In this document: one piece after another, positions 32,915 to 46,535 of the stretch
Layout of the letters: each line of letters begins with the position of its first letter
Numbering within the stretch: position 1 is the stretch's first letter
DNA from: an uncultured Eubacterium sp.
GTDB lineage: Bacteria; Bacillota; Clostridia; Oscillospirales; Acutalibacteraceae
Direction: 5' to 3'
DNA length: 49,276 bases
NCBI RefSeq assembly: GCF_945980375.1
Contig: NZ_CAMFQO010000009.1
Span: 1 to 49,276, forward strand
Program-made: the position numbers and the translations under genes
Notes under the pieces: generated by a model
What the model was told of the DNA's origin: nothing
Seen by the model: the letters and a program-made list of their open reading frames with translations, nothing else
Databases searched by the model: none

Positions 32915-33868
32915 ATGGCAAACAGACGAGTAGCACTTGTCGGTTGCGGTATGGTTGGTATGAGCTATGCGTATGCATTGCTTAATTCCGACCTTTGTAA
33001 TGAGCTGATTCTTATTGACGTAAACGAGGATAAGGCAAAGGGCGAGGCAATGGACCTTAACCATGGATTGTGCTTTTCGAGTTCTCATATGAAAATTCGT
33101 GCAGGCTCATTTGAGGATTGTGCATATGCAGACCTTGTTGTAATCACAGCGTCTGCCGGCTCAAGAAAGCCGGGCGAAACCCGCTTTGACCAGCTTAACA
33201 AAAACGTTGCAATATTCAAGTCCTTTGTTTCAAAGATTGTTGCATCGGGCTTTAACGGAATTTTTCTTGTTGCGTCAAATCCCGTTGATGTTATGACAAG
33301 GGTTACCTATGAGCTTTCAGGCTTTCCTGCAAACCGCGTTATCGGCTCGGGCACAACTCTTGACACGGCAAGACTTCGTTATCTTGTGGGCGATTATTTT
33401 CAGGCAGATCCGCACTCTGTTCACGGCTATGTTATAGGTGAGCACGGCGACAGCGAATTTGTGCCGTTCAGCCAGCTTAATCTTTCTACAAAAAATGTTG
33501 AGGAATTTTTCAATGACGAAAGATTTGCAAACGATTACAAGCGCGAGGATATTGAAAGAATTATCGAAAAGGTTAAGGATTCGGGCGCAGAGGTTATCAA
33601 GCTTAAGGGCGCAACCTATTACGGCATCGGTATGAGCCTTGTAAGAATCACCAAGGCAATCTTCGGTGACGAAAACAGCGTTATTACCGTATCATCAAGG
33701 CTTAACGGCGAATACGGTATGCGTGATGTTTACCTCGGTCTTCCTGCCTATGTAAACCGTAACGGCGTAAGAAAAATACTTCCCCTTAATTTGACCGATG
33801 AGGAGATTGAAAAGCTTCGCAACAGCTACAATATTCTTAAAGGGTCATACGAGGGACTAAATATGTAA
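32915..33868 (+). CDS. NAD-dependent lactate/malate dehydrogenase-family enzyme
   Basis: This 317-residue 2-hydroxyacid dehydrogenase is built like bacterial L-lactate dehydrogenase: GCGMVGMSYAYAL (Rossmann loop), acidic LIDVN at the end of strand 2 (NAD preference), NPVDVMTRV, GSGTTLDTARLRYLV, active-site GEHGDSE (His177) and KGATYYGIGMSLVRITKAI. In the substrate loop the chain reads SAGSRKPGETR, so Arg84 stands where LDH has Gln (Gln102) and malate dehydrogenase has Arg; one extra residue before it makes the alignment slightly uncertain. It could thus act on oxaloacetate. The ATG at 32915 has GGAAGG 11 nt before it; a nearer GTG is too close. It is monocistronic with a predicted Rex site, upstream of fumC. 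Confidence 0.88.
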   Translation: MANRRVALVGCGMVGMSYAYALLNSDLCNELILIDVNEDKAKGEAMDLNHGLCFSSSHMKIRAGSFEDCAYADLVVITASAGSRKPGETRFDQLNKNVAIFKSFVSKIVASGFNGIFLVASNPVDVMTRVTYELSGFPANRVIGSGTTLDTARLRYLVGDYFQADPHSVHGYVIGEHGDSEFVPFSQLNLSTKNVEEFFNDERFANDYKREDIERIIEKVKDSGAEVIKLKGATYYGIGMSLVRITKAIFGDENSVITVSSRLNGEYGMRDVYLGLPAYVNRNGVRKILPLNLTDEEIEKLRNSYNILKGSYEGLNM

Positions 33869-33875
33869 TTATACA

Positions 33876-33908
33876 AGAGGGCATCTATCCGATAGGTGTC
33901 CTTTTGTT
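33876..33908 (+). terminator. Rho-independent terminator of the dehydrogenase gene
   Basis: AGGGCATCTAT pairs with ATAGGTGTCCT around a CCG loop (33878-33902, with G-T pairs), followed by TTTTG. It separates this gene from the fumC operon. Confidence 0.75.
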
Positions 33909-34043: not shown

Positions 34044-34072
34044 TTGATATTGATTTTTGACGAATATATAAT
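34044..34072 (+). promoter_or_regulatory. Sigma-A promoter of the fumC-hdr-flx-frd operon
   Basis: TTGATA (34044-34049), a 17-nt spacer and a perfect TATAAT (34067-34072). Leader of about 39 nt ending in AGGAGG (34103-34108). This is the only strong promoter I see for the ten genes to 45522. Confidence 0.8.
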
Positions 34073-34117: not shown

Positions 34118-35494
34118 ATGAAATACCGTATTGAACACGATTCAATGGGCGAGGTAAAGGTTCCTGCCGACAAGTATTGGGCAGCACAAACCGAGCGTAG
34201 CCACGAAAATTTCAAAATCGGTGTGGGCATTGAGGTTATGCCAAGGGAGATTACTCACGCATTCGGCGTTCTCAAGAAGGCTGCCGCTATTGCAAACAAT
34301 CAGCTTAAGCCTGAAAAAATGACCGATGAAAAGCTTGCGGCTATCTCGCAGGCGTGCGATGAGGTTATGAGCGGTGAGCTCAACGAGCATTTTCCGCTTG
34401 TTGTTTGGCAGACAGGCTCAGGCACACAGTCAAATATGAACGCAAACGAGGTTATTGCCAACCGCGGTAACGAAATTGCAAATAAGGTTATTCTTCACCC
34501 CAATGACGACATCAATATGTCACAGTCATCAAACGACACTTTCCCGACAGCTATGAGCATTGCGGCTGTGTTGGGAATTGAGGATAAGGTTTTCCCCGCA
34601 CTCGATAAGCTTATTGCAACATTTAAGAGACTTGAGAAGGAAAACGAAGGCATCGTTAAGTCGGGCAGAACTCATTTGCAGGACGCAACGCCTATCACAT
34701 TTTCACAGGAAATCAGCGGTTGGAGAAGCTCTCTTGAAAAGGACAGAAAATTGCTTGAGATTGCCCTTCCCGAGCTCAAGGAGCTTGCACTCGGCGGTAC
34801 GGCAGTAGGCACGGGACTCAACGCACCAAAGGGCTTTGACGAAAAGGTGGCTCAGGCAGTAAGCGAAATCACAGGCAAAGCGTTTATCACTGCTCCTAAT
34901 AAGTTCCACGCTCTCACATCAAAGGACGAGATTGTATTTGCACACGGTGCACTTAAGGCTCTTGCGGCAGACCTTATGAAGATAGCAAACGATGTTCGTT
35001 GGCTTGCATCGGGTCCACGTCTTGGCTTGGGCGAAATCACTATTCCCGAAAATGAGCCGGGCTCATCAATTATGCCGGGTAAGGTTAACCCAACACAGTG
35101 CGAGGCTGTAACAATGGTTGCAGTTCAGGTTATGGGTAACGATGCCGCTATCGGTATGGCGGCTTCGCAGGGTAACTTTGAGCTTAACGTGTTTATGCCT
35201 GTTATCATCTATAATTTTACACAGTCTGTAAGACTTCTGTCGGAGGTTATGGTTTCGTTTAACGACAACTGTGCAGTAGGCATTAAGGCAAACGAGATGA
35301 AGATGGCAAACAATCTTCACAATTCACTTATGCTTGTTACTGCTCTTAACCCATATATCGGATATGAAAAGGCTGCAAAGACAGCAAAGCTTGCATACAA
35401 GAACAATATTTCTCTCAAGGCTGCCTGTGTTGAGCTTGGATTCTTGACAGAGGAAAAGTTTGACGAGGTTTTCCATCCGGAAAATATGGTTTGA
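34118..35494 (+). CDS. fumC: Class II fumarase
   Basis: FumC interconverts malate and fumarate without an iron-sulfur cluster. The 458-residue length is standard. Signatures are WQTGSGTQSNMNANEVIANR, SQSSNDTFPTAM, SGRTHLQDATP and the loop GSSIMPGKVNPTQCEA (about 313-328) with the catalytic serine. Residues are typical of fumarase rather than aspartase (aspartase would be the nearest alternative). It is the first gene of a ten-gene run; hdrB starts 31 nt later with no terminator between. In this setting its likely direction is malate to fumarate, feeding the fumarate reductase encoded at the end of the operon. Confidence 0.94.
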   Translation: MKYRIEHDSMGEVKVPADKYWAAQTERSHENFKIGVGIEVMPREITHAFGVLKKAAAIANNQLKPEKMTDEKLAAISQACDEVMSGELNEHFPLVVWQTGSGTQSNMNANEVIANRGNEIANKVILHPNDDINMSQSSNDTFPTAMSIAAVLGIEDKVFPALDKLIATFKRLEKENEGIVKSGRTHLQDATPITFSQEISGWRSSLEKDRKLLEIALPELKELALGGTAVGTGLNAPKGFDEKVAQAVSEITGKAFITAPNKFHALTSKDEIVFAHGALKALAADLMKIANDVRWLASGPRLGLGEITIPENEPGSSIMPGKVNPTQCEAVTMVAVQVMGNDAAIGMAASQGNFELNVFMPVIIYNFTQSVRLLSEVMVSFNDNCAVGIKANEMKMANNLHNSLMLVTALNPYIGYEKAAKTAKLAYKNNISLKAACVELGFLTEEKFDEVFHPENMV

Positions 35495-35525
35495 TTATTA
35501 CCGCTACATTACAAAGGAGAATAGA

Positions 35526-36314
35526 ATGATGACCTTTAGTTATTATCCGGGATGCACCTTAAAAACAAAGGCGCAGGAATTGGATAAATACGCCAGAATG
35601 TCGGCAAAGGCTCTCGGCGTGGAGCTTGAGGAATTGCCTGATTGGCAATGCTGCGGCGGTGTTTATCCTATGGCAAAGGATGAAATTGCCACTAAGCTTT
35701 CCTCTGTGCGTGCCCTTAATAAATCAAAGGAATTAGGCAACGACCTTGTAACTATGTGCTCCGCCTGCCACAATGTTATTAAGCAGGTTAACAACGATAT
35801 GAAGGACGAGGAAATTGCAGACAAGGTTGCAAGATATATGGGGCTTGGTGAAGCGTATCGCGGCGAAACAAATGTTATTCACTTTCTTGAGCTTTTACGC
35901 GACAGAATAGGCTTTGACAAAATCAAGTCAATGGTAACAAATCCGCTTAAGGACAAAAAAATTGCCGCATATTACGGCTGTTTGCTTTTGCGTCCAAGCA
36001 GTGTTATGCAAATGGATGACCCTGAAAATCCTACTATTATGGAGGATTTTATTAAGGCGTTGGGCGCAACACCTGTTGTATATTCAATGCGTAACGAATG
36101 CTGCGGCGGTTACACAACAATCGGCAATAAGCCTTTGGCGGCTTCAAAGGGCAATGCCGTGCTTGAAAACGCAGTAAACAACGGTGCCCAGATGATTATT
36201 ACTGCCTGCCCGCTTTGTATGTATAACCTAAATAAGAATGCTACGGATTACGATGTGCCGGTGGTATATTTTACACAGCTTCTTGCACAGGCACTCGGCT
36301 TAATCGGCGAATAA
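35526..36314 (+). CDS. hdrB: Heterodisulfide reductase subunit B-like protein
   Basis: This 262-residue protein has two complete CCG domains. The first has YPGC, WQCCGG and MCSACH; the second has YYGCLLLRPS, NECCGG and CPLCMYN. In methanogen HdrB these cysteines bind two unusual [4Fe-4S] clusters that reduce the CoM-S-S-CoB heterodisulfide. Clostridia lack those coenzymes, so here HdrB must act on another acceptor or pass electrons on. The ATG at 35526 follows AAGGAGA. It lies directly between fumC and hdrC. Given the FrdA/FrdB-like proteins downstream, a role as the electron bridge to fumarate reductase is plausible, as the methanogen thiol:fumarate reductase subunit TfrB carries an HdrB-like domain. 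Confidence 0.92.
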   Translation: MMTFSYYPGCTLKTKAQELDKYARMSAKALGVELEELPDWQCCGGVYPMAKDEIATKLSSVRALNKSKELGNDLVTMCSACHNVIKQVNNDMKDEEIADKVARYMGLGEAYRGETNVIHFLELLRDRIGFDKIKSMVTNPLKDKKIAAYYGCLLLRPSSVMQMDDPENPTIMEDFIKALGATPVVYSMRNECCGGYTTIGNKPLAASKGNAVLENAVNNGAQMIITACPLCMYNLNKNATDYDVPVVYFTQLLAQALGLIGE

Positions 36315-36327
36315 GGAGGACTTGCAG

Positions 36328-36714
36328 ATGGAAAATAAAAATCTTAAAGAGCAGGTTATCCGCAGTGCCGGTGTTAATCCGCTTAAATGTATGGGTTGCG
36401 GAAAATGCTCGGCAACCTGCCCTTCGTACGACAGTATGGAATATCATCCCCATCAGTTTGTTTCTATGGTGGCAAACGGTATGATAGAGCCTCTTATGGA
36501 GAGCGAATCGCTGTACACCTGCCTTTCCTGCCTTGCATGTATAGAAAGATGCCCGAGAGGTGTTGAGCCTGCAAGATTTGTTGAGGCTGTAAGGCTTGCA
36601 AAAATTCGTCAGCAGGGTGCCAAGCATATGAACGCACAGGATATTCCGTCACAGTGGGATGAGGATTTACCGCAGCAGGCTATCGTTTCTGCGTTAAGAA
36701 AGTATTGGAAGTAA
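36328..36714 (+). CDS. hdrC: Heterodisulfide reductase subunit C-like ferredoxin
   Basis: This 128-residue iron-sulfur protein carries two [4Fe-4S] motifs, CMGCGKCSATCP and CLSCLACIERCP, spaced as in HdrC. It would carry electrons between HdrA and HdrB. The ATG at 36328 lies 8 nt after GGAGG; a TTG 6 nt before it is too close to the ribosome binding site. It is shorter than many methanogen HdrC proteins but has the full core. Spacing to hdrB and hdrA is 13 and 15 nt. Confidence 0.92.
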   Translation: MENKNLKEQVIRSAGVNPLKCMGCGKCSATCPSYDSMEYHPHQFVSMVANGMIEPLMESESLYTCLSCLACIERCPRGVEPARFVEAVRLAKIRQQGAKHMNAQDIPSQWDEDLPQQAIVSALRKYWK

Positions 36715-36729
36715 GGAGGAGTAAAAGAT

Positions 36730-38724
36730 ATGCACAGAATAGGCGTATTCGTTTGTTGGTGCGGTAGCAATATCGCCGGCACGGTTGATGTTCATAGGGT
36801 TGCAGAGTCTCTCAAAAACGAGCCGGGCGTGGTTTACTCCACCGATTATCAATATATGTGCTCCGAGGCAGGGCAAAATCTTGTAAAGGACGCAATCAGG
36901 GATTATAACCTCACAGGTGTTGTAATTTGCTCCTGCTCACCGCGTATGCACGAAAATACCTTCCGCAAGGCGGCGGCTTCGGTTGGCCTTAATCCGTATA
37001 TGGTAGAGATTGCCAACATTCGCGAGCAATGCTCCTGGATACATAAGGATATGCAAACAGCCACCGAAAAGGCAGTTATTTTGGGCAGAGCCGCTATTGC
37101 AAAGGTTCAGCTCAACACACCGCTTGTTGCAGGCGAAAGCCCTGTTACAAAGCGTGCCCTTGTTATCGGCGGAGGTATCGCAGGTATTCAAACCGCCCTT
37201 GATATTGCCGAGGCAGGCTTTGAGGTTGATATTGTTGAAAAGTCACCTACCATCGGCGGAAAAATGGCACAGATAGACAAAACATTCCCAACCCTCGACT
37301 GCGCGGCGTGTATCCTCACACCAAAGATGGTAGAGGCCGCACAGCAGGAAAAAATCAAGATTTATTCCTACAGCGAGGTTGAAGAGGTAAAGGGATTTGT
37401 AGGTAACTTTAATGTTAAGATTAAGCGCAAGGCAAGATTTGTAAACGAGGACATTTGCACGGGTTGCGGACTTTGCACCGAAAAATGCCCTATGAAAAAG
37501 GTGCCAAACGAATTTAATCTCGGTATGGATAACCGTAGTGCAATATATATTCCGTTTGCACAGGCCGTACCAAAGGTTGCAACCATTGACCCCAACTATT
37601 GTATTAAGATGAAAACCGGCAAGTGCGGTCTTTGTTCCACCGTTTGCGAGGCAAAGGCTATCAATTACGACGCCAAGGATGAATATATCGACGCACAGTA
37701 TGGTGCTATTGTTGTTGCAACAGGCTTTGAGCCGATAAAGGTTGATAAGTTCGACGAGTTTGCGTACAATCAGTCACCTGATGTTGTTACATCTCTTGAG
37801 TACGAAAGATTGATGAATGCGGCAGGCCCTACAAGCGGAACCCTGCTCAGACCGTCGGACCACGAGCATCCGCACACCATCGTGTTTGTACAGTGCGTAG
37901 GCTCCCGTTGTGCCGAAACCGACCCAAAGGGCAAGCCGTATTGCTCAAAGGTATGCTGTATGTACACTGCAAAGCACGCAATGCTTACCAGAGAAAAATA
38001 TCCTGACACGGATGTTTATGTGTTCTACATTGATGTTCGTACTCCGGGCAAGAATTTTGACGAATTTTACCGCAGAGCCGTAGAGGAATACGGAGTGCAT
38101 TACGTAAAGGGTATGGTTGGCAAGGTTGTTCCCGACGGCAAAAAGCTAAGGGTTCAGGCATCCGATTTGCTTAATAACAGACAACTGCATATCGATGCGG
38201 ATATGGTTGTGCTTGCGGCGGCTGTTGAGCCCGACAAGTCTGCAAGACCTCTTGCAACAATGCTCACCGCATCTATGGACACCAACGATTTCTTCACCGA
38301 GGCTCACCCAAAGCTTCGCCCTGTGGAATCACCTACTGCAGGCGTATTCCTGTCGGGTATGTGTCAGGGTCCAAAGGATATTCCTGAAACCGTATCACAG
38401 GCTTCGGCATGTGCGGCAAAGGTTATCGGTCTGCTCGTTAAGGATAAGCTTACCTGCAATCCGTGTGTTGCTCACAGCGATGAGATGATGTGTAACGGCT
38501 GCTCGTCGTGCGAAAAGGTTTGCCCTTACGGTGCAATAACCTATCAGGACAAGGAGTTCCGTATGCCGGACAGAACAATTCAAATCAGGCGTGTTGCAAG
38601 CGTAAACCCTGCCGTATGTCAGGGCTGCGGTGCCTGTACGGTTGCCTGTCCGTCAGGTGCTATGGATCTTAACGGATTTTCCAACAAGCAAATTATGGCG
38701 GAGGTAGATGCAATATGCAAGTAG
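36730..38724 (+). CDS. hdrA: Heterodisulfide reductase subunit A-like flavoprotein
   Basis: HdrA carries the FAD that splits electron pairs in HdrABC complexes. The 664-residue protein has all domains of a full HdrA: N-terminal RIGVFVCWCGSNIAG (CWCG instead of the usual CHCG), SCSPRMHENTFR, ANIREQCSWIH, the FAD-binding VIGGGIAGIQTALDIAEAG, GGKMAQIDKTFPTLDCAACI, inserted ferredoxin motifs CTGCGLCTEKCP and CGLCSTVC, then a thioredoxin-reductase-like domain and two C-terminal [4Fe-4S] motifs, CNGCSSCEKVCP and CQGCGACTVACP. Everything needed for flavin-based bifurcation appears present, although only biochemistry can prove it. The stop overlaps the flxD start by 10 nt. Confidence 0.94.
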   Translation: MHRIGVFVCWCGSNIAGTVDVHRVAESLKNEPGVVYSTDYQYMCSEAGQNLVKDAIRDYNLTGVVICSCSPRMHENTFRKAAASVGLNPYMVEIANIREQCSWIHKDMQTATEKAVILGRAAIAKVQLNTPLVAGESPVTKRALVIGGGIAGIQTALDIAEAGFEVDIVEKSPTIGGKMAQIDKTFPTLDCAACILTPKMVEAAQQEKIKIYSYSEVEEVKGFVGNFNVKIKRKARFVNEDICTGCGLCTEKCPMKKVPNEFNLGMDNRSAIYIPFAQAVPKVATIDPNYCIKMKTGKCGLCSTVCEAKAINYDAKDEYIDAQYGAIVVATGFEPIKVDKFDEFAYNQSPDVVTSLEYERLMNAAGPTSGTLLRPSDHEHPHTIVFVQCVGSRCAETDPKGKPYCSKVCCMYTAKHAMLTREKYPDTDVYVFYIDVRTPGKNFDEFYRRAVEEYGVHYVKGMVGKVVPDGKKLRVQASDLLNNRQLHIDADMVVLAAAVEPDKSARPLATMLTASMDTNDFFTEAHPKLRPVESPTAGVFLSGMCQGPKDIPETVSQASACAAKVIGLLVKDKLTCNPCVAHSDEMMCNGCSSCEKVCPYGAITYQDKEFRMPDRTIQIRRVASVNPAVCQGCGACTVACPSGAMDLNGFSNKQIMAEVDAICK

Positions 38725-39158
38725 AGAATAAAGAATTTAAGCCTAAAATTGTAGCATTCTGCTGTAATTGGTGCTCATATGCAGGTGCCGATTTGGCAGG
38801 CACAAACAGACTTAACTATCCTGCCGATGTAAAGATTATTCGTGTGCCATGCTCATGCAGAGTAAATCCTATGTTTGTTCTGCGTGCGTTTCAAAGAGGT
38901 GCCGACGGCGTAATTATGTGCGGATGCCATCCGGGCGACTGCCATTACACTACCGGCAACTATTATGCAAGAAGAAGAATGACTCTGCTTTTTTCCATGC
39001 TCGATTATCTCGGTATAGAAAAGGGCAGAACAAGGGTAGAATGGGTGTCTGCCGCAGAGGGACAAAAATTCGCCGAAACAATGAATAGCTTTGTGGAAAC
39101 TATTTATCAGCTCGGCGAAAATAAAAGATTGGAGGACTTGAGATGCAAAAACAAATAA
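38715..39158 (+). CDS. flxD: MvhD/FlxD-like electron-transfer subunit
   Basis: This 147-residue protein matches MvhD, the [2Fe-2S] protein that passes electrons from a hydrogenase, formate dehydrogenase or NADH module to HdrA. Motifs are FCCNWCSYAGAD, IRVPCSCRVNPMFVLRAF (usually PCSGR), GADGVIMCGCHPGDCHY, GNYYARRR and VEWVSAAEG. There is no hydrogenase gene here; the neighbours are FlxA/B/C-like proteins, so FlxD of the Flx-Hdr complex of Desulfovibrio is the better comparison. It overlaps hdrA by 10 nt and the next gene by 16 nt, pointing to tight stoichiometry. Confidence 0.9.
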   Translation: MQVENKEFKPKIVAFCCNWCSYAGADLAGTNRLNYPADVKIIRVPCSCRVNPMFVLRAFQRGADGVIMCGCHPGDCHYTTGNYYARRRMTLLFSMLDYLGIEKGRTRVEWVSAAEGQKFAETMNSFVETIYQLGENKRLEDLRCKNK

Positions 39159-40123
39159 TTGCAAAGGCAAAGGAACTCCTCCAAAACGGCACTGTTGACA
39201 GAGTGCTCGGCTGGAAAATCGGCGAATTTAAGTACGACTTAACTCCGGGTGTGTTCACCTCACCCGAGGAGGTTGACAGCGATTTTGTGTACAACACCTT
39301 CTCGTGCGCCAACCTTTCAAAGTATCTTGTTAAGCAAACAAGAAAGGACGCAGACAAAATTGCAATTTTTGTAAAGCCGTGCGATTCATATAGCCTTCAG
39401 CAGCTTATCAAGGAGCATAGGGTTGACAGAGAAAGGGTGTATATTATAGGTATTGAGTGCTTTGGCAAAACCGATATTAATAAGGTTAAGGCTTTAGGAC
39501 TTAATGCTATCAGCGATATTAAGGAGGACGACACCTCCATTACCGTTGAAACCGTGTACGGTGACAAAAAGACCGTGCAAAAATATGAGGTTATGGCAGA
39601 GCGCTGTCTGTCGTGCAAGAGCAAAAAAATCGTAATTTATGACGAGCTTATCGGCGAAAACGGTGATGTAGTAGACTCTGACAGATTTGACGAGGTTGCA
39701 AGGCTTGAGGCTATGACACCCGATGAAAGATTTGCTTTTTGGCAAAACGAGCTTTCAAGGTGCATACGTTGCAACGCTTGCAGAAATGTATGCCCTGCCT
39801 GCACCTGTGAAAAATGCGTGTTTGACAATGATGAGTCGGGCGTTGCTCAAAAGGCAGCCCAAACAAGCTTTGAGGAAAGCAATTTTCACATTATCCGTGC
39901 GTTTCACGTTGCCGGACGTTGTACCGATTGCGGCGAATGTTCACGTGTTTGTCCTCAAAATATTCCGCTTCACCTGCTTAACAGAAAGTTCATCAAGGAT
40001 GCTAACGAGCTTTACGGTGAATATCAGGCAGGCGCAGACGCAGACAGCAGATATCCGCTTGTTAATTTCGATTTTGACGATTGCGAGCCAAGTGTTGTTT
40101 ATGAGAGAGGAGGACAGGAATAA
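39143..40123 (+). CDS. Flx-type iron-sulfur subunit (FlxB/FlxC-like), first
   Basis: This 326-residue cytosolic iron-sulfur protein belongs to the group of Hdr-associated FlxB/FlxC and F420-dehydrogenase-beta-like proteins. The N-terminal half (about 1-180) has KPCDSYSLQQLI and GIECFGK and an isolated CLSCKSKK. The C-terminal half carries two ferredoxin motifs, CIRCNACRNVCPACTCEKC (about 210) and CTDCGECSRVCP (about 260). It would relay electrons from the NADH flavoprotein to FlxD/HdrA. I cannot tell whether it corresponds to FlxB or FlxC. Its start overlaps flxD and its stop overlaps the next start by one base. Confidence 0.82.
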   Translation: MQKQIIAKAKELLQNGTVDRVLGWKIGEFKYDLTPGVFTSPEEVDSDFVYNTFSCANLSKYLVKQTRKDADKIAIFVKPCDSYSLQQLIKEHRVDRERVYIIGIECFGKTDINKVKALGLNAISDIKEDDTSITVETVYGDKKTVQKYEVMAERCLSCKSKKIVIYDELIGENGDVVDSDRFDEVARLEAMTPDERFAFWQNELSRCIRCNACRNVCPACTCEKCVFDNDESGVAQKAAQTSFEESNFHIIRAFHVAGRCTDCGECSRVCPQNIPLHLLNRKFIKDANELYGEYQAGADADSRYPLVNFDFDDCEPSVVYERGGQE

Positions 40124-41142
40124 TGAAAAAGATTTCTATGTCGCAAATCGACTCTCTCTTTAAGGCTATTGCAGAGCATCAGGCACTGTACATTCCAACC
40201 GATAACGGTGATGTTGCAGAGTTTGCAAGATATAAGGACGGTATGAAGCTTACCGAAAGGTATAACACCAACCGCTCTGCAAAGGATTTCTTCTTCCCGC
40301 AGACAGAAAGCCTTTACGATATTCGTATGAACGGACCAAAGCTTGAGATTAAGGATACCAGACAGGAATGTGAGGACTTTGTTGTGTTCGGCGTTCGAGG
40401 CTGTGATGTCAGAGCATTTGAGATTTTAGACAGAGTTTTCCTCGTGGAGCCTGTTGATACATATTATAAAAACAGAAGAAGCCACGCAACAATAATTTCC
40501 TTTGCGTGCAACAGACCGGAGGAAACCTGCTTTTGTAACGCCTTTGGCATAGATGCCTCCGACCCGCAGGGTGATGTTACCGCTTGGCAAAACGGCGACA
40601 CTCTTTACCTTGAAGCCAAAACAGAAAAGGGTGCAGACCTTATTGCAAGGCTTGGCGATGCTTTGCAGGACAGCGACAGCGCACCCGTAGAGCAGGTTAA
40701 AAGCGCAGTTAAAACCGTTATGGGCAAGCTTCCTCTCGGTAACACCTCGTTTGAGGGTATGAAGAACAGCGATTTGCTCAATCACTTTAATAACGAAAAA
40801 TGGGGCGAGCTCAGCGAGTCGTGCATTGGCTGTGGCACCTGTACCTTTGTGTGCCCAACCTGTCAGTGCTACGACATCAGAGAGTTTGACACCGGCAACG
40901 GAGTTAAAAAGTTTAGGTGCTGGGACAGCTGTATGTACAGCGATTTTACCAAGATGGCTCACGGCAATCCCCGTGTATCACAGCTTGAGCGCTTCCGCCA
41001 AAGGTTTATGCACAAGCTTGTGTATTTTCCGGATAACAACGACGGCATATTCGGTTGCGTAGGCTGTGGCAGATGCCTTGCAAAATGCCCTATTTCAATG
41101 AATATCGTAAAGGTAGAAAAAGCATTGGAGGTTGAAGCATAA
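40123..41142 (+). CDS. Flx-type iron-sulfur subunit, AsrA/sulfhydrogenase-like, second
   Basis: This 339-residue protein resembles AsrA (anaerobic sulfite reductase subunit A) and HydB-type sulfhydrogenase beta subunits, which occur in Flx complexes. The N-terminal domain has FFFPQTESLYDI and FGVRGCDVRAFEILDRVFL. Two C-terminal [4Fe-4S] motifs are CIGCGTCTFVCPTCQC and CVGCGRCLAKCP, with CWDSCMYSDFTKMAHGNPR between. It would link the FlxA NADH site with the rest of the chain. No siroheme sulfite reductase gene is nearby, so sulfite reduction is unlikely. It overlaps both neighbours by one base (TAATG). Confidence 0.85.
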   Translation: MKKISMSQIDSLFKAIAEHQALYIPTDNGDVAEFARYKDGMKLTERYNTNRSAKDFFFPQTESLYDIRMNGPKLEIKDTRQECEDFVVFGVRGCDVRAFEILDRVFLVEPVDTYYKNRRSHATIISFACNRPEETCFCNAFGIDASDPQGDVTAWQNGDTLYLEAKTEKGADLIARLGDALQDSDSAPVEQVKSAVKTVMGKLPLGNTSFEGMKNSDLLNHFNNEKWGELSESCIGCGTCTFVCPTCQCYDIREFDTGNGVKKFRCWDSCMYSDFTKMAHGNPRVSQLERFRQRFMHKLVYFPDNNDGIFGCVGCGRCLAKCPISMNIVKVEKALEVEA

Positions 41143-41969
41143 TGAATAACGAAACCTTAATTCCTCAAATCGGTGTTGTTACGGATATTCGACAGGACAC
41201 CCCCGATGTAAAAACCTTTAGGGTAAATGCTCTTGAGGGCGGCAAGGTGTTTGAGCATATTCCGGGACAGTGCGCAATGCTTTCTATTCCCGGTGCAGGC
41301 GAGGGTATGTTTTCTATCACCTCGTCACCTACCAATAAGGAATATATGGAGTTCAGCATCAAAAAGTGCGGCTGCCTTACATCGTGGCTTCATATGATGG
41401 ATGTTGGACAGGAAATTGCAATCAGGGGTCCGTACGGCAACGGCTTTCCTGTTGATACCGATTTTGCAGGCAAGGATTTGCTTTTTATTGCCGGCGGTAT
41501 CGGTCTTGCTCCGTTACGCTCGGTAATCAACTATTGCCGAGATAACCGAGACAAGTACGGCTCTATTGATATTGTGTACGGTTCTCGCAGTATGGATGAC
41601 CTTGTTGATTATCAAGAGATTATTGACGAATGGTGCAGCGAGGACGGCATCAACGTTTATCTTACCATTGACCGCGAGCAGGAGGGCTGGGACGGTCACG
41701 TTGGCTTTGTTCCCGATTATGTTAAGGAGCTTGGCTTTGACACAAACAAAACCTGCGTTATCTGCGGTCCGCCTATTATGATTAAGTTTACCCTGCAGGG
41801 ACTTATCGCTCTTGGCTTTGAAAAAACACAGGTCTACACTACTATGGAGCTTAGGATGAAATGCGGCGTCGGCAAGTGCGGTCGTTGTAATATCGGCAAC
41901 AGGTATGTGTGCAAGGACGGTCCGGTTTTTCGTTGTGATGAGCTGGACGAATTGCCTGACGAATATTAA
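41142..41969 (+). CDS. flxA: FAD/NAD(P)H-binding oxidoreductase subunit (FlxA/AsrB-like)
   Basis: This 275-residue ferredoxin-reductase-type flavoprotein is the probable NADH entry point. The FAD domain (about 1-105) has GQCAMLSIPG, FSITSSPTNKEY and IRGPYGNGF. The NAD domain (about 110-230) has FIAGGIGLAPLRSVI and VICGPPIM. The C-terminal CGVGKCGRCNIGNRYVCKDG binds a [2Fe-2S] cluster, as in PyrK and AsrB. NADH rather than NADPH preference is inferred from Flx systems, not visible for certain. Placed after the AsrA-like gene (one-base overlap) and before the FrdB-like gene (21 nt). Confidence 0.88.
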   Translation: MNNETLIPQIGVVTDIRQDTPDVKTFRVNALEGGKVFEHIPGQCAMLSIPGAGEGMFSITSSPTNKEYMEFSIKKCGCLTSWLHMMDVGQEIAIRGPYGNGFPVDTDFAGKDLLFIAGGIGLAPLRSVINYCRDNRDKYGSIDIVYGSRSMDDLVDYQEIIDEWCSEDGINVYLTIDREQEGWDGHVGFVPDYVKELGFDTNKTCVICGPPIMIKFTLQGLIALGFEKTQVYTTMELRMKCGVGKCGRCNIGNRYVCKDGPVFRCDELDELPDEY

Positions 41970-41990
41970 GATTGGGAGGATATTGGATTT

Positions 41991-42668
41991 ATGGAAAATA
42001 ATATGGTTAATGTTTATTTGTTCGGCAAAAGGTACAGCGTGCCGTCAAGCCTTACAATAATGAGCGCAATGGAATATGCCGGCTATCAGCTCAAAAGGGG
42101 CTGTGGTTGCCGCAACGGATTTTGCGGTGCGTGTGCAACCATTTACAGAATTGCCGGAGATAAGGAGTTAAAGGCTTGCCTCGCCTGTCAAACACAGGTT
42201 CAGGAGGGTATGTATATTGCAACTCTTCCTTTCTTCCCGCTTGTTAAAGAGCCTTATGATATAGAAAAAATCAGCACAAACGAAGCTGTTATGATGCAGC
42301 TTTATCCCGAGATTTATGCCTGTGTCGGCTGTAACGCCTGCACAAATGCCTGTACTCAGGAGCTTAACGTTATGCAGTATATTGCATATGCTCAAAGAGG
42401 TGAATTTGAAAAGTGCGCCGAGGAAAGCTTTGACTGCGTAATGTGCGGCGTATGCTCATCAAGGTGCCCGGCGGGTATCTCTCATCCGCAGGTTGCCCTG
42501 CTGGCAAGAAGAATTAACGGCAAGTATCTCGCTCCGGAGAGTAAGCACCTGACAAACAGAGTTCAGGAAATTAAGGACGGCACATTTGAGGAGCTCCTTC
42601 AAAATCTTATGCAAAAGCCGATTGAGGAAATGAAAGAGCTTTATAATAACAGAGAGATAGAAAAGTAA
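41991..42668 (+). CDS. Fumarate reductase-type iron-sulfur subunit (soluble)
   Basis: This 225-residue protein has the plan of FrdB/SdhB/TfrB iron-sulfur subunits. An N-terminal [2Fe-2S] domain (CGCRNGFCGACATIY and later CLACQ, about 35-65) is followed by two [4Fe-4S] motifs, CVGCNACTNACT (about 108) and CVMCGVCSSRCP (about 150). It lacks the HdrB-like CCG domain of methanogen TfrB and also the usual segment that docks quinone-binding membrane subunits; no such subunits are encoded nearby. A separate hdrB in the same operon may replace the missing CCG domain. It is 13 nt upstream of the flavoprotein gene. Gene symbol left empty because the family is broad. Confidence 0.85.
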   Translation: MENNMVNVYLFGKRYSVPSSLTIMSAMEYAGYQLKRGCGCRNGFCGACATIYRIAGDKELKACLACQTQVQEGMYIATLPFFPLVKEPYDIEKISTNEAVMMQLYPEIYACVGCNACTNACTQELNVMQYIAYAQRGEFEKCAEESFDCVMCGVCSSRCPAGISHPQVALLARRINGKYLAPESKHLTNRVQEIKDGTFEELLQNLMQKPIEEMKELYNNREIEK

Positions 42669-42681
42669 GGAGGCGGTTGAA

Positions 42682-44286
42682 ATGTATAATAAAGAAATGC
42701 AGGAATCCATGCAAAGGGTTGCGGCAAACAGAGCAGAAAACGCAGTTTTTGAGCCTCGTCGTATGACAGCACAGGAAAAGGACACCCTCCTTGCAACATA
42801 TCATCCCGACTACAAGCAGGACCAGTTTGCTACTCTTCAAATAGGACCGAACAAGGGTGAAAAGGTACCGCTTGAGCTTGCAGATTTGCTTCAGGCTCAC
42901 AGCAGAATTAACCCTGCCGATATTGATTTGAGCAAGGTTGACTATGATGTTGACGTGCTTATCATCGGCGGCGGCGGTGCAGGTGCCTCTGCCGCTATCG
43001 AGGCAGATAACAACGGTGCATCCTGTATGATTGTTACCAAGCTCAGAATCGGCGATGCCAACACAATGATGGCAGAGGGCGGTATTCAGGCTGCGGACAA
43101 GGAAAATGATTCTCCTGCACAGCATTATATTGATGCATTCGGCGGAGGTCACTTTGCCGCAAAGCCGGAGCTTCTTTACAAGCTTGTAAATGACGCACCC
43201 GAGGCTATTCAGTGGCTTAACAATTTGGGTGTAGAGTTTGATAAGGATGCAGACGGAACAATGGTAACAACCCACGGCGGCGGTACATCACGCAAGAGAA
43301 TGCACGCCGCAAAGGACTATTCCGGTGCAGAGATTATGCGAACCCTGCGTGACGAGGTACAAAACAGAAGAATACCTATCGTGGACTTTACAGCCGCTAT
43401 TGAGCTTATTAAGGACACACAGGGCAAAATTGCCGGTGCCGTTCTTATGAATATGGAAACACAGGAAATCCTGATTGCCAGGGCAAAGACTGTTGTCATT
43501 GCAACAGGCGGTGCAGGCAGGCTTCATTATCAGGGCTTCCCAACCTCAAATCACTACGGTGCAACAGCCGACGGACTTATTCTCGGCTACCGTGCAGGAG
43601 CAAAGCTTTTGTACGCAGACACCTTGCAGTATCACCCGACAGGTGTTGCTTTTCCGGAGCAGATTTTCGGCGCCTTGGTTACGGAAAAGGTGCGCTCTCT
43701 CGGTGCAAAGCTTGTCAATGTAAACGGCGAGGTGTTTATGCATCCGCTTGAAACCCGTGATGTTTCAGCGGCATCAATTATCCGCGAATGTTCTACAAAC
43801 GGCAACGGAGTACATACCGATGACGGTATAGGTGTATGGCTTGATACTCCTATGATTGAGCTTAAAAACGGTGAGGGTACTATCGAAAAGAGAATTCCGG
43901 CCATGATGAGAATGTTTGGCAAGTACGGAATAGATATTCGCAAGGAGCCTATCCTTGTATATCCTACCCTCCATTACCAAAACGGCGGACTTGACATTAG
44001 TGCAAACGGTATGACCGCTGTTGAAAATCTGTATGTTGCAGGTGAGGCCGTTGGCGGTATCCACGGCAGAAACAGGCTTATGGGCAACTCGCTTCTTGAC
44101 ATTATTGTTTTCGGCAGAAATGCAGGTAAAAACGCATCTGCCAAGGCAAAGGAAACCGAGCTTGCGGATTTGACGCTTGCCCACGTTAGCGATTTTGAAA
44201 ACGAAATTAAGGATGCAGGATTGCAAAGCGATATTGTATCACCAAAGCTTTTGCCTGATTACACCCGAAAGGTAAATGAAAAATAA
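42682..44286 (+). CDS. Fumarate reductase-type flavoprotein (soluble)
   Basis: This 534-residue protein is a fumarate reductase/succinate dehydrogenase flavoprotein relative. After an N-terminal extension of about 90 residues comes the FAD loop VLIIGGGGAGASAAIEA. Active-site residues line up with E. coli FrdA: His318 (YHPTG), Thr334-Glu335-Arg338, Arg359 (TRD), His431 (LHYQNGG) and Arg465 (HGRNRL). The histidine that covalently holds FAD in SdhA/FrdA (SHT) is Asn127 here (ANTMMAEGG), so FAD should be non-covalent, as in soluble fumarate reductases and NadB. The C-terminal domain of SdhA is mostly missing. These features favour fumarate reduction over succinate oxidation. L-aspartate oxidase is the main alternative, but operon context argues against it. 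Confidence 0.88.
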   Translation: MYNKEMQESMQRVAANRAENAVFEPRRMTAQEKDTLLATYHPDYKQDQFATLQIGPNKGEKVPLELADLLQAHSRINPADIDLSKVDYDVDVLIIGGGGAGASAAIEADNNGASCMIVTKLRIGDANTMMAEGGIQAADKENDSPAQHYIDAFGGGHFAAKPELLYKLVNDAPEAIQWLNNLGVEFDKDADGTMVTTHGGGTSRKRMHAAKDYSGAEIMRTLRDEVQNRRIPIVDFTAAIELIKDTQGKIAGAVLMNMETQEILIARAKTVVIATGGAGRLHYQGFPTSNHYGATADGLILGYRAGAKLLYADTLQYHPTGVAFPEQIFGALVTEKVRSLGAKLVNVNGEVFMHPLETRDVSAASIIRECSTNGNGVHTDDGIGVWLDTPMIELKNGEGTIEKRIPAMMRMFGKYGIDIRKEPILVYPTLHYQNGGLDISANGMTAVENLYVAGEAVGGIHGRNRLMGNSLLDIIVFGRNAGKNASAKAKETELADLTLAHVSDFENEIKDAGLQSDIVSPKLLPDYTRKVNEK

Positions 44287-44298
44287 GGGGTGTAATTA

Positions 44299-45522
44299 AT
44301 GGATTTAGGTATTTTATCCGTAAGCGGTGTAGCTTTTTTGACCTTTAGTGTGCTTGCAATATCTGCTCTCGGCTACATGCTTGGCAGAATAACCGTTAAG
44401 GGAGTAAATCTCGGCACGGCAGGCGTGTTCATTGTTGCATTGCTGTTTGGTGCATTTTTGTTCCCTGTTCTTGAAAAACAGCTTGTTGTCGGTGATGTCA
44501 ACGCTGTATCCTTTACAAAAGAGGCACTTAAGATTGTAGAAAATCTCGGCTTGATTTTCTTTGTAACCTCTGTCGGCTTTATCGCAGGACCAAGGTTTTT
44601 CAGAAATATGAAAAAGAACTTTAAGTCCTATGTTTTGATCGGCTTGGTTATTATCGGTGCAGGCGCACTCGTTTGCGTGCTTTGCATTGTTTTGGGCGGT
44701 AGGGTGACCTCTGTTGACCACGACACCTTCAAGTCCACAATGGTTGGCCTGCTTGCAGGTGCTCTTACCTCAACACCGGCCTTCTCCGCTTCAAAGGAAG
44801 CAGTCAGCGAAATGGGGGCTCATTTTGAGGATGCCGTTTCGGCAGGCTACGCCATTGCGTATCTGTTCGGCGTTATCGGCGTTGTGCTTTTTGTGCAAAT
44901 CGTTCCAAAGCTTGCAAAGGCAGATATGAGCGAGGAGCTGAAAAAAATCTCTGTACAGGCGGGTGACGAAAAGAAAAAGGCCGTCAGCGACCTTGTTAAA
45001 ATTGATGATTTGGGGCTTGCCGCGTTTGCCCTGGCTGCAATTCTCGGTGTTATGGTTGGCTCAATTAAGGTTAAAGGCTTTTCTCTCACAACAACAGGTG
45101 GATGTATTTTGATTGCCCTCGTGTTCGGGCACTTTGGCAGAGTCGGCAAAATCAGCATTATGCCGGAGCAGTCTGTGCTTCGAACCCTGCGAGAGCTCGG
45201 CCTTATGATGTTCCTTATCGGCGCAGGTGTAACGGGCGGTGCAAAGTTTGTGCAGTATTTTGAGCCTGTTTATTTCCTTTACGGCGCAGTGTTAACCCTT
45301 TTGCCTATGATTATAGGATTTGTTTTTGCCAAGTATGTTTTGAAAATGCCGTTGCTTAATAACCTTGGCTCAATCACGGGCGGTATGACAAGTACCCCGG
45401 CACTCGGCACACTCATCAGTGTGGCAGGCACCGAGGATGTTGCGGCGGCATACGCGGCAACATATCCCATCGCGCTCATCAGCGTGGTAATCGCCTCAAA
45501 GCTAATAATTATGTTTTGTTAA
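44299..45522 (+). CDS. AspT/SucE-family membrane exchanger
   Basis: This 407-residue membrane protein of the aspartate:alanine exchanger (AAEx) family has about ten hydrophobic helices in two halves, each with the family motif: GALTSTPAFSAS (about 152) and GGMTSTPALGTL (about 362). Family members with known roles are AspT (aspartate/alanine) and Corynebacterium SucE (succinate export). The two cytoplasmic TrkA-C domains of AspT (~540 residues) are absent, replaced by a short charged loop (about 205-235). It begins 12 nt after the fumarate reductase flavoprotein gene and is the last gene before a terminator, so succinate export or fumarate/aspartate:succinate exchange is a reasonable inference. 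Confidence 0.85.
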   Translation: MDLGILSVSGVAFLTFSVLAISALGYMLGRITVKGVNLGTAGVFIVALLFGAFLFPVLEKQLVVGDVNAVSFTKEALKIVENLGLIFFVTSVGFIAGPRFFRNMKKNFKSYVLIGLVIIGAGALVCVLCIVLGGRVTSVDHDTFKSTMVGLLAGALTSTPAFSASKEAVSEMGAHFEDAVSAGYAIAYLFGVIGVVLFVQIVPKLAKADMSEELKKISVQAGDEKKKAVSDLVKIDDLGLAAFALAAILGVMVGSIKVKGFSLTTTGGCILIALVFGHFGRVGKISIMPEQSVLRTLRELGLMMFLIGAGVTGGAKFVQYFEPVYFLYGAVLTLLPMIIGFVFAKYVLKMPLLNNLGSITGGMTSTPALGTLISVAGTEDVAAAYAATYPIALISVVIASKLIIMFC

Positions 45523-45617: not shown

Positions 45618-46517
45618 TTATGTTTTCTTTTTTGTTGTGTCGGCTTTGTCGGTGCTGTCCTTTTCGGATGCCTTCTTGTCATCCTTTTTGGTTGTTGTTG
45701 CCTTTGTTGTGGATGGCTTTGGCTTTTTGTATCGGCTGATTGTACGGTAGTTTTGCTTGCCGTTTACCGTACGGGTTAAGATGTATTCATCACCTTTTTT
45801 GGTTATGTCAATTTTTACACCGTCAACCCTCACATCCTCCTTGCCGTACAGCGAGCAGGTCAGCTTGCCGTTTTCGCAGGTCATCTTAATTCGCACGTCG
45901 CAGCCGAGGTTGTTTTTGAACTTAAAATCCTTGCTGTTCCATTGAACAGTTGCGTCACCGCCGAGAGGCACATAGCCTATTTCGAGTGAGTGGTATGTTC
46001 TGTAAACAATTTCAACATTAGCTCTCAATACACATTCAAACAGAGTGGAGCTTACCTGACAGACTCCGCCGCCGAGACCGTCAACAAATTCTCCGCCGTT
46101 GATAACCTTTGCAGTTTTGTAGCCTGCTGTTACCGTTCTCTTGCCGACCGTTTGGTTAAATGAAAACACAGCGTCATTTGGAATTTTGATGTTGTTGAGC
46201 TTGCTTACAGCAGCCTTTAGGTTGGCAGTTCTTGTTTCATCGCTCGAACGGTAGTATGATGTGTAGGTTGCAAGCTTGTATGGGTAATCACCCTCACTGT
46301 CCTTTGAAAGACCGGGGTAAACCTTTTGTGTTTTGTTTTCCTTAAAGGTGGTGTCCAAGTCCTCGGTTGTTGTGGGCTTGGTAGTGGTTTCGGTTGTCGT
46401 TTCGCTTGTTTGGGCTTGTTCGTCGCTGTTGCTTGCCGAGCATCCTGCGACTGTACATATTACCGCTGTAAACGCAAGCAAAACGGCAAGCAGCTTTTTA
46501 CTTCTTTTCTCTTTCAT
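45618..46517 (-). CDS. VanW-domain lipoprotein
   Basis: This protein of about 299 residues is probably a lipoprotein: KKLLAVLLAFTAVICTVAGC ends in a lipobox cysteine. A Thr/Ser/Glu-rich linker (about 27-60) leads to the VanW domain (about 85-195), with FSFNQTVGKRTVTAGY and the signature GGGVCQVSSTLF. VanW occurs in vancomycin-resistance clusters and in many cell-envelope proteins, but its activity is unknown; no other van gene is present. A C-terminal region with repeated lysines and threonines (KKPKPSTTKATTTKK) ends the chain, perhaps contacting the wall. Two ATG codons are possible: 46535, directly after the glmU stop and without a ribosome binding site, or 46517, used here. It is cotranscribed with glmU. 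Confidence 0.85.
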   Translation of the reverse strand: MKEKRSKKLLAVLLAFTAVICTVAGCSASNSDEQAQTSETTTETTTKPTTTEDLDTTFKENKTQKVYPGLSKDSEGDYPYKLATYTSYYRSSDETRTANLKAAVSKLNNIKIPNDAVFSFNQTVGKRTVTAGYKTAKVINGGEFVDGLGGGVCQVSSTLFECVLRANVEIVYRTYHSLEIGYVPLGGDATVQWNSKDFKFKNNLGCDVRIKMTCENGKLTCSLYGKEDVRVDGVKIDITKKGDEYILTRTVNGKQNYRTISRYKKPKPSTTKATTTKKDDKKASEKDSTDKADTTKKKT

Positions 46518-46535
46518 CACAATACTTGCCTTCAT

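Follow-up and report, generated by a model that had tools for sequence, protein, structure and literature searches.

A gene cluster for a candidate soluble fumarate reductase linked to Flx-Hdr electron bifurcation in an uncultured Eubacterium sp. and related Clostridia

The contig NZ_CAMFQO010000009.1 of an uncultured Eubacterium sp. (Acutalibacteraceae, assembly GCF_945980375.1), analyzed here from position 1 to 49,276 (the window), carries eleven genes on the + strand between positions 34118 and 45522 that encode a fumarate hydratase (FumC), HdrB, HdrC and HdrA, an MvhD/FlxD-type protein, two FlxB/C-type iron-sulfur (Fe-S) proteins, FlxA, the fumarate reductase subunits FrdB and FrdA and an AspT-type exchanger. 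We consider it fairly probable that these genes specify a soluble Flx-Hdr-Frd system in which NADH (or NADPH) reduces fumarate via Hdr while electrons are also bifurcated to ferredoxin. Neither the operon nor the hypothesis is new, as both are already published for Pseudoclostridium thermosuccinogenes according to passages of PMC7282089. What is added here is the breadth of the occurrence of these genes, their strict linkage at high sequence identity, the conservation of individual residues and the exceptions.

Results

Linkage of frdBA with hdr and flx genes

A preliminary description of this DNA had connected hdrABC-flx with frdAB, and this linkage proved strict at high FrdA identity. In the first count genes were scored when located upstream on the same strand, and denominators comprise those loci that offer enough upstream sequence. 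Among 118 distinct loci with FrdA identities of at least 69%, HdrB was found in 86/86, HdrC in 87/87, HdrA in 87/87, MvhD in 100/100, FlxA in 111/111, FrdB in 112/112 and FumC in 64/82 cases; at high identity no frdAB locus without Hdr-Flx was seen where enough upstream sequence is available. The pooled set behind these counts holds 166 loci (160 distinct by FrdA DNA), namely the best 80 of at least 538 stretches encoding a FrdA relative in a scan of a genome collection, seven loci from close relatives and further loci from class and phylum. The best 80 include Ruminococcus flavefaciens FD-1 among named rumen and gut records, and together with the seven they show, wherever a locus offers enough room, HdrA, HdrB and HdrC in 65/65 loci each, MvhD in 75/75, FlxA and FrdB in 82/82 each, FumC in 56/62 and AspT in 49/72.

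The seven loci stem from a scan of 60 relatives, the source genome counted, with 37 genomes from the genus and 23 from the order. Eight of the 60 carry FrdA with at least 75% identity, five of them in the order; all other FrdA matches in this sample are limited to 37% identity over long stretches, with short pieces reaching 43%. The order HdrB-HdrC-HdrA-MvhD-Flx-Flx-FlxA-FrdB-FrdA is kept in all seven other carriers (7/7), one of which, L038, has no FumC match at the locus. Within the genus this FrdA type is patchy (3/37 genomes), yet FrdA of the two other carriers is 91% identical, a pattern that repeated loss or transfer would produce.

Genome-wide co-occurrence points in the same direction. 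Of 291 sampled genomes of the class 40 contain FrdA, 45 MvhD and 39 both (Fisher p 7.6e-41, kinship being ignored). FrdA without MvhD is confined to a single genome (G129, locus L203), which is 75% complete and the contig of which stops before the place of MvhD, and MvhD without FrdA occurs in six genomes. With 39 of the 45 MvhD-containing genomes also possessing FrdA, the module marker MvhD thus mostly accompanies this fumarate reductase in the class. Conserved linkage and genome-wide co-occurrence together rule out chance clustering.

Conserved residues and predicted clusters

Residues were counted in stop-free matches covering at least 85-90% of the respective gene, identical proteins being counted once, and equivalent positions in FrdA were read from an alignment to solved fumarate reductases. 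H318, T320, E335, R338, R359, H431 and R465 of FrdA are kept in 154/154 sequences; the aligned His, Thr, Glu and Arg positions are those which we take to be catalytic in the flavoproteins of fumarate reductases and succinate dehydrogenases. At the position presumed to be the site of the covalently FAD-linking His, Asn127 is present in 153/154 sequences, and the single His occurs in L072. The FAD domain is preceded by about 87 additional N-terminal residues, conserved in part, and the C-terminus falls about where canonical models still have more than 100 positions. This extension (window positions 42682-42942) is partly kept family-wide, also in relatives without Hdr, and has no match in Pfam.

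The two CX2CX2CX3C motifs of FrdB provide eight 4Fe-4S cysteines in 152/152 sequences, and Cys48 of the 2Fe-2S site is missing in 1/152. Since the last motif contains a fourth Cys in 152/152 sequences, the third cluster is predicted to be of the 4Fe-4S rather than the 3Fe-4S type. Cys142 of FrdB was considered as a marker of Hdr coupling and rejected: it is present in 114/115 sequences with Hdr-Flx upstream, also in 7/17 from Hdr-less loci and in none from the other Hdr-linked groups (n=5, 11 and 4), and thus follows kinship rather than coupling.

Ten of ten cysteines are invariant in 107/107 near-full-length HdrB sequences, and eight of eight in 103/103 HdrC sequences. Residues 3-661 of HdrA match, nearly from end to end, the HdrA of solved methanogen HdrABC complexes (5odc, 8rvu), which bifurcate electrons, and the 4Fe-4S cysteines of HdrA between residues 243-306 and 588-640 are invariant in 108/108 sequences. 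The same holds for Cys241, 246, 249 and 257 of FlxA in 113/113 sequences.

Metabolic setting of the genome

The genome, which is 98% complete, is equipped to use reduced ferredoxin and to make fumarate. An rnfCDGEAB cluster (L265) is present, each of its six subunits passing a model cut-off, and profile searches detected pyruvate:ferredoxin oxidoreductase (PFOR) and a GTP-type phosphoenolpyruvate carboxykinase (PEPCK), with no match in the genome for the ATP-type enzyme. GTP-PEPCK, a malate-type dehydrogenase, FumC and FrdA would together provide a route from phosphoenolpyruvate via oxaloacetate, malate and fumarate to succinate. Neither the [FeFe]-hydrogenase family PF02906 nor DsrC (PF04358) is matched in the genome; the former result rules out reoxidation of ferredoxin by an [FeFe]-hydrogenase, [NiFe]-hydrogenases not having been searched for.

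Discussion

Proposed electron flow

The products of the operon may form a complex in which FlxA would accept hydride from NADH (or NADPH) and electrons would reach the FAD of HdrA by way of the FlxB/C proteins and MvhD. There, one electron of each pair would be directed through HdrC, HdrB and FrdB to FrdA, reducing fumarate to succinate, and the other would be transferred onto ferredoxin, giving the sum 2 NADH + fumarate + 2 oxidized ferredoxin → 2 NAD+ + succinate + 2 reduced ferredoxin. Redox potentials of +33 mV for fumarate, -320 mV for NADH and -420 to -500 mV for ferredoxin yield about -33 to -49 kJ per fumarate for this reaction. Rnf would reoxidize ferredoxin and pump ions, such that the two enzymes would jointly act as a quinone-free fumarate respiration. 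GTP-PEPCK, malate dehydrogenase and FumC would supply fumarate from phosphoenolpyruvate, and succinate would probably leave the cell through the AspT-type protein.

Exceptions at lower identity

Several observations weigh against this scheme. All ten cysteines of both CCG sites of HdrB are retained, and a disulfide may therefore still be the substrate of this protein. The NCBIfam scores of FrdA (the best 25 of 49 families were considered) lie below curated cut-offs; the same applies to FrdB, HdrB and HdrC and, for three Hdr models, to HdrA, and all five thus represent distinct branches of their families. The expectation that frdAB and hdr-flx are not found apart holds at high identity but fails in part at FrdA identities of 49-65%, where 19 of 39 loci from the phylum have no Hdr gene in reach, four of them with at most 3.2 kb of upstream sequence. 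These 39 loci belong to 38 genomes which, in addition to the source genome, contain FrdA at a strict cut-off among 398 genomes of the phylum (39 in all). MvhD is encoded somewhere in 18 of the 22 genomes behind Hdr-less (18) and HdrC-HdrB (4) loci and is absent from four of the 18 Hdr-less-locus genomes (G713, G415, G633 and G412). It follows that FrdAB can work with something else, being a module usable in the absence of Hdr-Flx. Among the 42 distinct loci of the pooled set with FrdA identities below 66%, HdrB is found upstream in 15/36, HdrA in 12/36, MvhD in 14/38, FlxA in 3/41 and FrdB in 40/41, Hdr genes located downstream not being included.

The remaining phylum loci are diverse. Eleven of the 39, ten of them from one family, have matches to MvhD and HdrA in another arrangement, which includes a second FAD and Fe-S protein of 1092 residues (scanned in L222); HdrC and HdrB are present in 9/11; in L230 and L234 the contig stops too early. 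Hdr-Flx genes follow downstream in four loci (a fifth such locus, L215, belongs to the class), and one (L251) has the full set upstream. The last four (L229, L236, L243 and L247) encode HdrC-HdrB-FrdB-FrdA with neither HdrA nor Flx nearby, an arrangement that points to HdrB as the partner of FrdB. All four genomes have MvhD elsewhere, and HdrA may thus act there from another locus, which is a further point against the proposed scheme. The four loci may encode a soluble fumarate reductase in minimal form, partnered by HdrB.

In a FrdA tree of 67 rows calculated by a quick method (27 Hdr-Flx-upstream loci, 20 of them chosen at random, 39 others and one very distant outgroup), 7 changes of context are counted against a mean of 33.6 after shuffling, the tree being weakly rooted. 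Some further features of the less similar loci may be recorded. The four genomes devoid of an MvhD match carry frdBA in L218-L220 and L224, and in L218 a pyruvate carboxylase gene (1784.6 bits) lies ahead of the pair. In L244 and L227 frdBA is preceded by genes resembling those of a two-part fumarase and of a set of membrane and Fe-S proteins, one protein of L244 having an FMN-binding domain and another, of 536 residues, lacking a family match in Pfam and NCBIfam. Many MvhD matches from the phylum hold one in-frame TGA (for example G389:C6:312305-312673, G698:C21:77049-77417, G637:C1:1742840-1743208 and G384:C17:76925-77293), which suggests selenocysteine in these proteins.

Alternative readings

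The foremost alternative is a direct, non-bifurcating NAD(P)H:fumarate reductase, in which Flx and Hdr merely wire NADH to FrdAB and ferredoxin is not reduced. Every part that it needs is detected by family scans, no activity data contradict it, and the four phylum loci with HdrC-HdrB-FrdBA and no HdrA nearby are in its favor. A mere wire, however, would not obviously need the inserted and C-terminal ferredoxin-type Cys motifs of HdrA, which are kept in 108/108 sequences, and about 68 kJ would be wasted with the potentials given above, so that we regard this explanation as unlikely. Still less probable appears a thiol-mediated process, in which Flx-Hdr reduces a disulfide and the resulting thiols reduce fumarate at FrdAB in the manner of methanogen thiol:fumarate reductase. 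The invariant cysteines of HdrB (ten in 107/107) and a match of HdrB to the C-terminal half of TfrB (43.7 bits) would suit it, whereas a Pfam scan gave no CCG match in FrdB itself, which could thus hardly oxidize a thiol alone, DsrC is unmatched in the genome and frdBA resides in the same operon as hdr-flx.

It is highly improbable that the system runs in reverse and oxidizes succinate to fumarate, merging electrons from succinate and reduced ferredoxin into NADH. L222 and L244 do adjoin genes resembling 2-oxoacid:ferredoxin oxidoreductase and succinyl-CoA ligase genes (named from their first residues only), but the exporter, fumarase and PEPCK suit the reductive arm, and Asn takes the place of the FAD-linking His in FrdA, a replacement that abolishes succinate oxidation in E. 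coli FrdA. Equally remote is a function of FrdA as L-aspartate oxidase or on another enoate. A match of FrdA to the NadB model (282.6 bits, cut-off 452.75) speaks in favor of it. Against it, FrdA stays below every NadB cut-off listed, His198 (150/154) stands where, aligned by eye, NadB has a Glu that is presumably an active-site residue, fumC and the malate-type dehydrogenase gene adjoin frdA, and the L-aspartate oxidase reading is ruled out by a separate NadB (564.6 bits, cut-off 472) encoded next to nadC. Bifurcating fumarate reduction via Flx-Hdr-Frd is the reading that we prefer.

Layout of the operon and its upstream region

The eleven genes, one more than counted previously, are free of internal stops, and a check of the open reading frames (ORFs) returned the same spacing of -16 to +31 nt as before, from which we infer a single transcript; the next long ORF downstream (45618-46535) is on the opposite strand. 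The families FumC, HdrBCA, MvhD, Flx, FrdBA and AspT named in the preliminary description agree with Pfam and NCBIfam, and family scans of the eleven genes confirmed the lack of a membrane anchor, a hydrogenase, DsrC and a sulfite reductase among them. Of the two proteins described there as AsrA/FlxBC-like only the second shows good similarity to AsrA, the first reaching just 19.2 bits with that model. PF02662 (MvhD) has a single match in the whole genome. For hdrB, scans and alignments used a translation begun six bases 5' of the first ATG (35526); the start of hdrC was set mechanically at TTG 36322, with the first ATG at 36328.

Table 1. Features in and ahead of the operon (window positions)
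Feature	Position	Strand	Evidence
Lactate/malate dehydrogenase family, malate-type motif SRKPGETR	32915-33868	+	L-LDH model 383.2 bits, cut-off 303.55 passed
Terminator-like hairpin, dehydrogenase-fumC interval	33874-33906	+	-18.5 kcal/mol, z -6.49, 0/200 shuffles as stable
Sigma-70-like promoter ahead of fumC	34044-34072	+	11/12 consensus match
fumC, class II fumarate hydratase	34118-35494	+	TIGR00979 714.3 bits, cut-off 664.75
hdrB, two CCG domains, ten Cys	35526-36314	+	Pfam/NCBIfam, start = first ATG
hdrC, two 4Fe-4S motifs	36322-36714	+	Pfam/NCBIfam
hdrA, FAD and 4Fe-4S protein	36730-38724	+	NF040770 791.4 bits, cut-off 1100 not reached
mvhD/flxD, MvhD/FlpD family	38715-39158	+	PF02662 187.4 bits
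FlxB/C-type Fe-S protein 1	39143-40123	+	Weak family matches; position kept across relatives
FlxB/C-type Fe-S protein 2, AsrA/ShyB-like	40123-41142	+	ShyB 169.1 bits, AsrA 132.8 bits
flxA, AsrB/ShyC-like FAD/NAD(P)H and 2Fe-2S reductase	41142-41969	+	Pfam/NCBIfam
frdB, one 2Fe-2S site and two CX2CX2CX3C motifs	41991-42668	+	Pfam/NCBIfam
frdA, flavoprotein, fumarate-reductase catalytic residues, N-terminal extension, Asn at FAD-His place	42682-44286	+	
AspT-type exchanger, candidate succinate exporter (predicted substrate)	44299-45522	+	Asp-Al_Ex 203.8 bits, TIGR01625 149.4 bits

The dehydrogenase gene ends 249 nt ahead of fumC. Its product passes the L-lactate dehydrogenase (LDH) model; the assignment as lactate dehydrogenase was nevertheless rejected in favor of a putative malate-type enzyme because an Arg occupies what we take to be the specificity position, where LDH has Gln. 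Among 70 matches from related loci, duplicates included, 55 have the motif, all 55 with Arg, and 15 lack it; the exact wording of the motif in the window recurs in one of the 55. The hairpin behind this gene, with a T-run inside its 3' arm, is not among the matches of a consensus scan of the region for terminators and promoters. Together with the sigma-70-like site it indicates that fumC probably starts a transcript of its own, promoter-like sites in the region being only somewhat more numerous (28) than in shuffled sequences (21.1, standard deviation 4.3).

Relation to known systems

Membrane-bound FrdABCD differs in three respects. No anchor is encoded beside frdAB, where only the AspT-type exchanger follows (the genome beyond the locus was not searched for anchors), the His for covalent FAD is replaced by Asn (153/154), and the fourth Cys in the third cluster motif of FrdB (152/152) does not, judged from the motif, fit a 3Fe-4S cluster. 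FrdA scores highest with the model of methanogen TfrA (347.2 bits), and in TfrAB an FrdB part likewise cooperates with an HdrB-like part; here, however, frdB and hdrB are separate genes instead of encoding one TfrB chain, and scores are well under the cut-offs (718 for TfrA, 385 for TfrB). The 8-methylmenaquinol:fumarate reductase SdhABE also has an HdrB-like third subunit, the SdhE model scoring 144.7 bits on HdrB, but the SdhE cut-off of 500 bits is not reached and the operon described here additionally encodes HdrA and Flx.

The seven-subunit donor module, compared by gene families, is the same as FlxABCD-HdrABC of Desulfovibrio vulgaris, which was reportedly described by Ramos et al. in 2015. 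The acceptor postulated for the latter in the part of PMC5296606 concerned is the DsrC disulfide, whereas here frdBA is found in the same operon and DsrC is unmatched in the genome. Tubeworm symbionts and Thioflavicoccus have flxABCD-hdrABC together with korABCD and tfrAB in clusters for the reductive tricarboxylic acid cycle; as in our case, fumarate reductase genes are interspersed with Flx-Hdr, and direct electron transfer from Flx-Hdr to TfrAB is proposed in passages of PMC6315080. According to the same passages these clusters differ in serving autotrophic CO2 fixation, in the TfrAB type of the reductase and in including a 2-oxoglutarate oxidoreductase.

Closest in concept is the 'succinate operon' of P. 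thermosuccinogenes (CDQ83_RS03315-65), which, in the passages of PMC7282089 on which the comparison is based, comprises fumarate hydratase, Flx-Hdr, fumarate reductase and a putative succinate transporter. It unites fumarase, hdrABC, flx, frd and transporter genes in one operon, as does the window, and the same link to ferredoxin is proposed, although the organism is another one and the likeness is drawn from the published description, not from sequence. The authors, who refer to Ramos et al., assume 'as proposed previously' that the fumarate reductase of the operon is coupled to the reduction of ferredoxin, and they also cite a 2019 preprint (10.20944/preprints201912.0288.v1); the coupling is an assumption in these passages, which contain no biochemical test of it. 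Under CO2 limitation the operon was up about fourfold and Rnf down about twofold, the latter not significantly for all subunits (PMC7282089). The earlier statement that no characterized example is known thus stands insofar as no biochemical measurement of such a Flx-Hdr-Frd enzyme was found in the open-license literature searched, but the idea itself is already in print, as these passages on P. thermosuccinogenes demonstrate.

Implications

We see the chances as evenly balanced that HdrBC-FrdBA constitutes a portable, soluble fumarate-reducing cartridge which in Clostridia is locked to FlxABCD-HdrA, bifurcates electrons, supports a quinone-free fumarate respiration together with Rnf and provides a main route to succinate in gut and rumen, and which in other members of the phylum is combined with other donor modules. 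If the proposed electron flow is true, fumarate would belong among the high-potential acceptors of flavin-based bifurcation, and cells forming succinate would conserve energy in reduced ferredoxin, with neither quinones nor a membrane enzyme being involved. The set of genes is a common one: this FrdA type is present in 40/291 sampled genomes of the class as well as in named records from rumen and gut, and cultured carriers exist, so that the proposal is directly testable. It bears on succinate production and electron disposal in Clostridia of gut and rumen.

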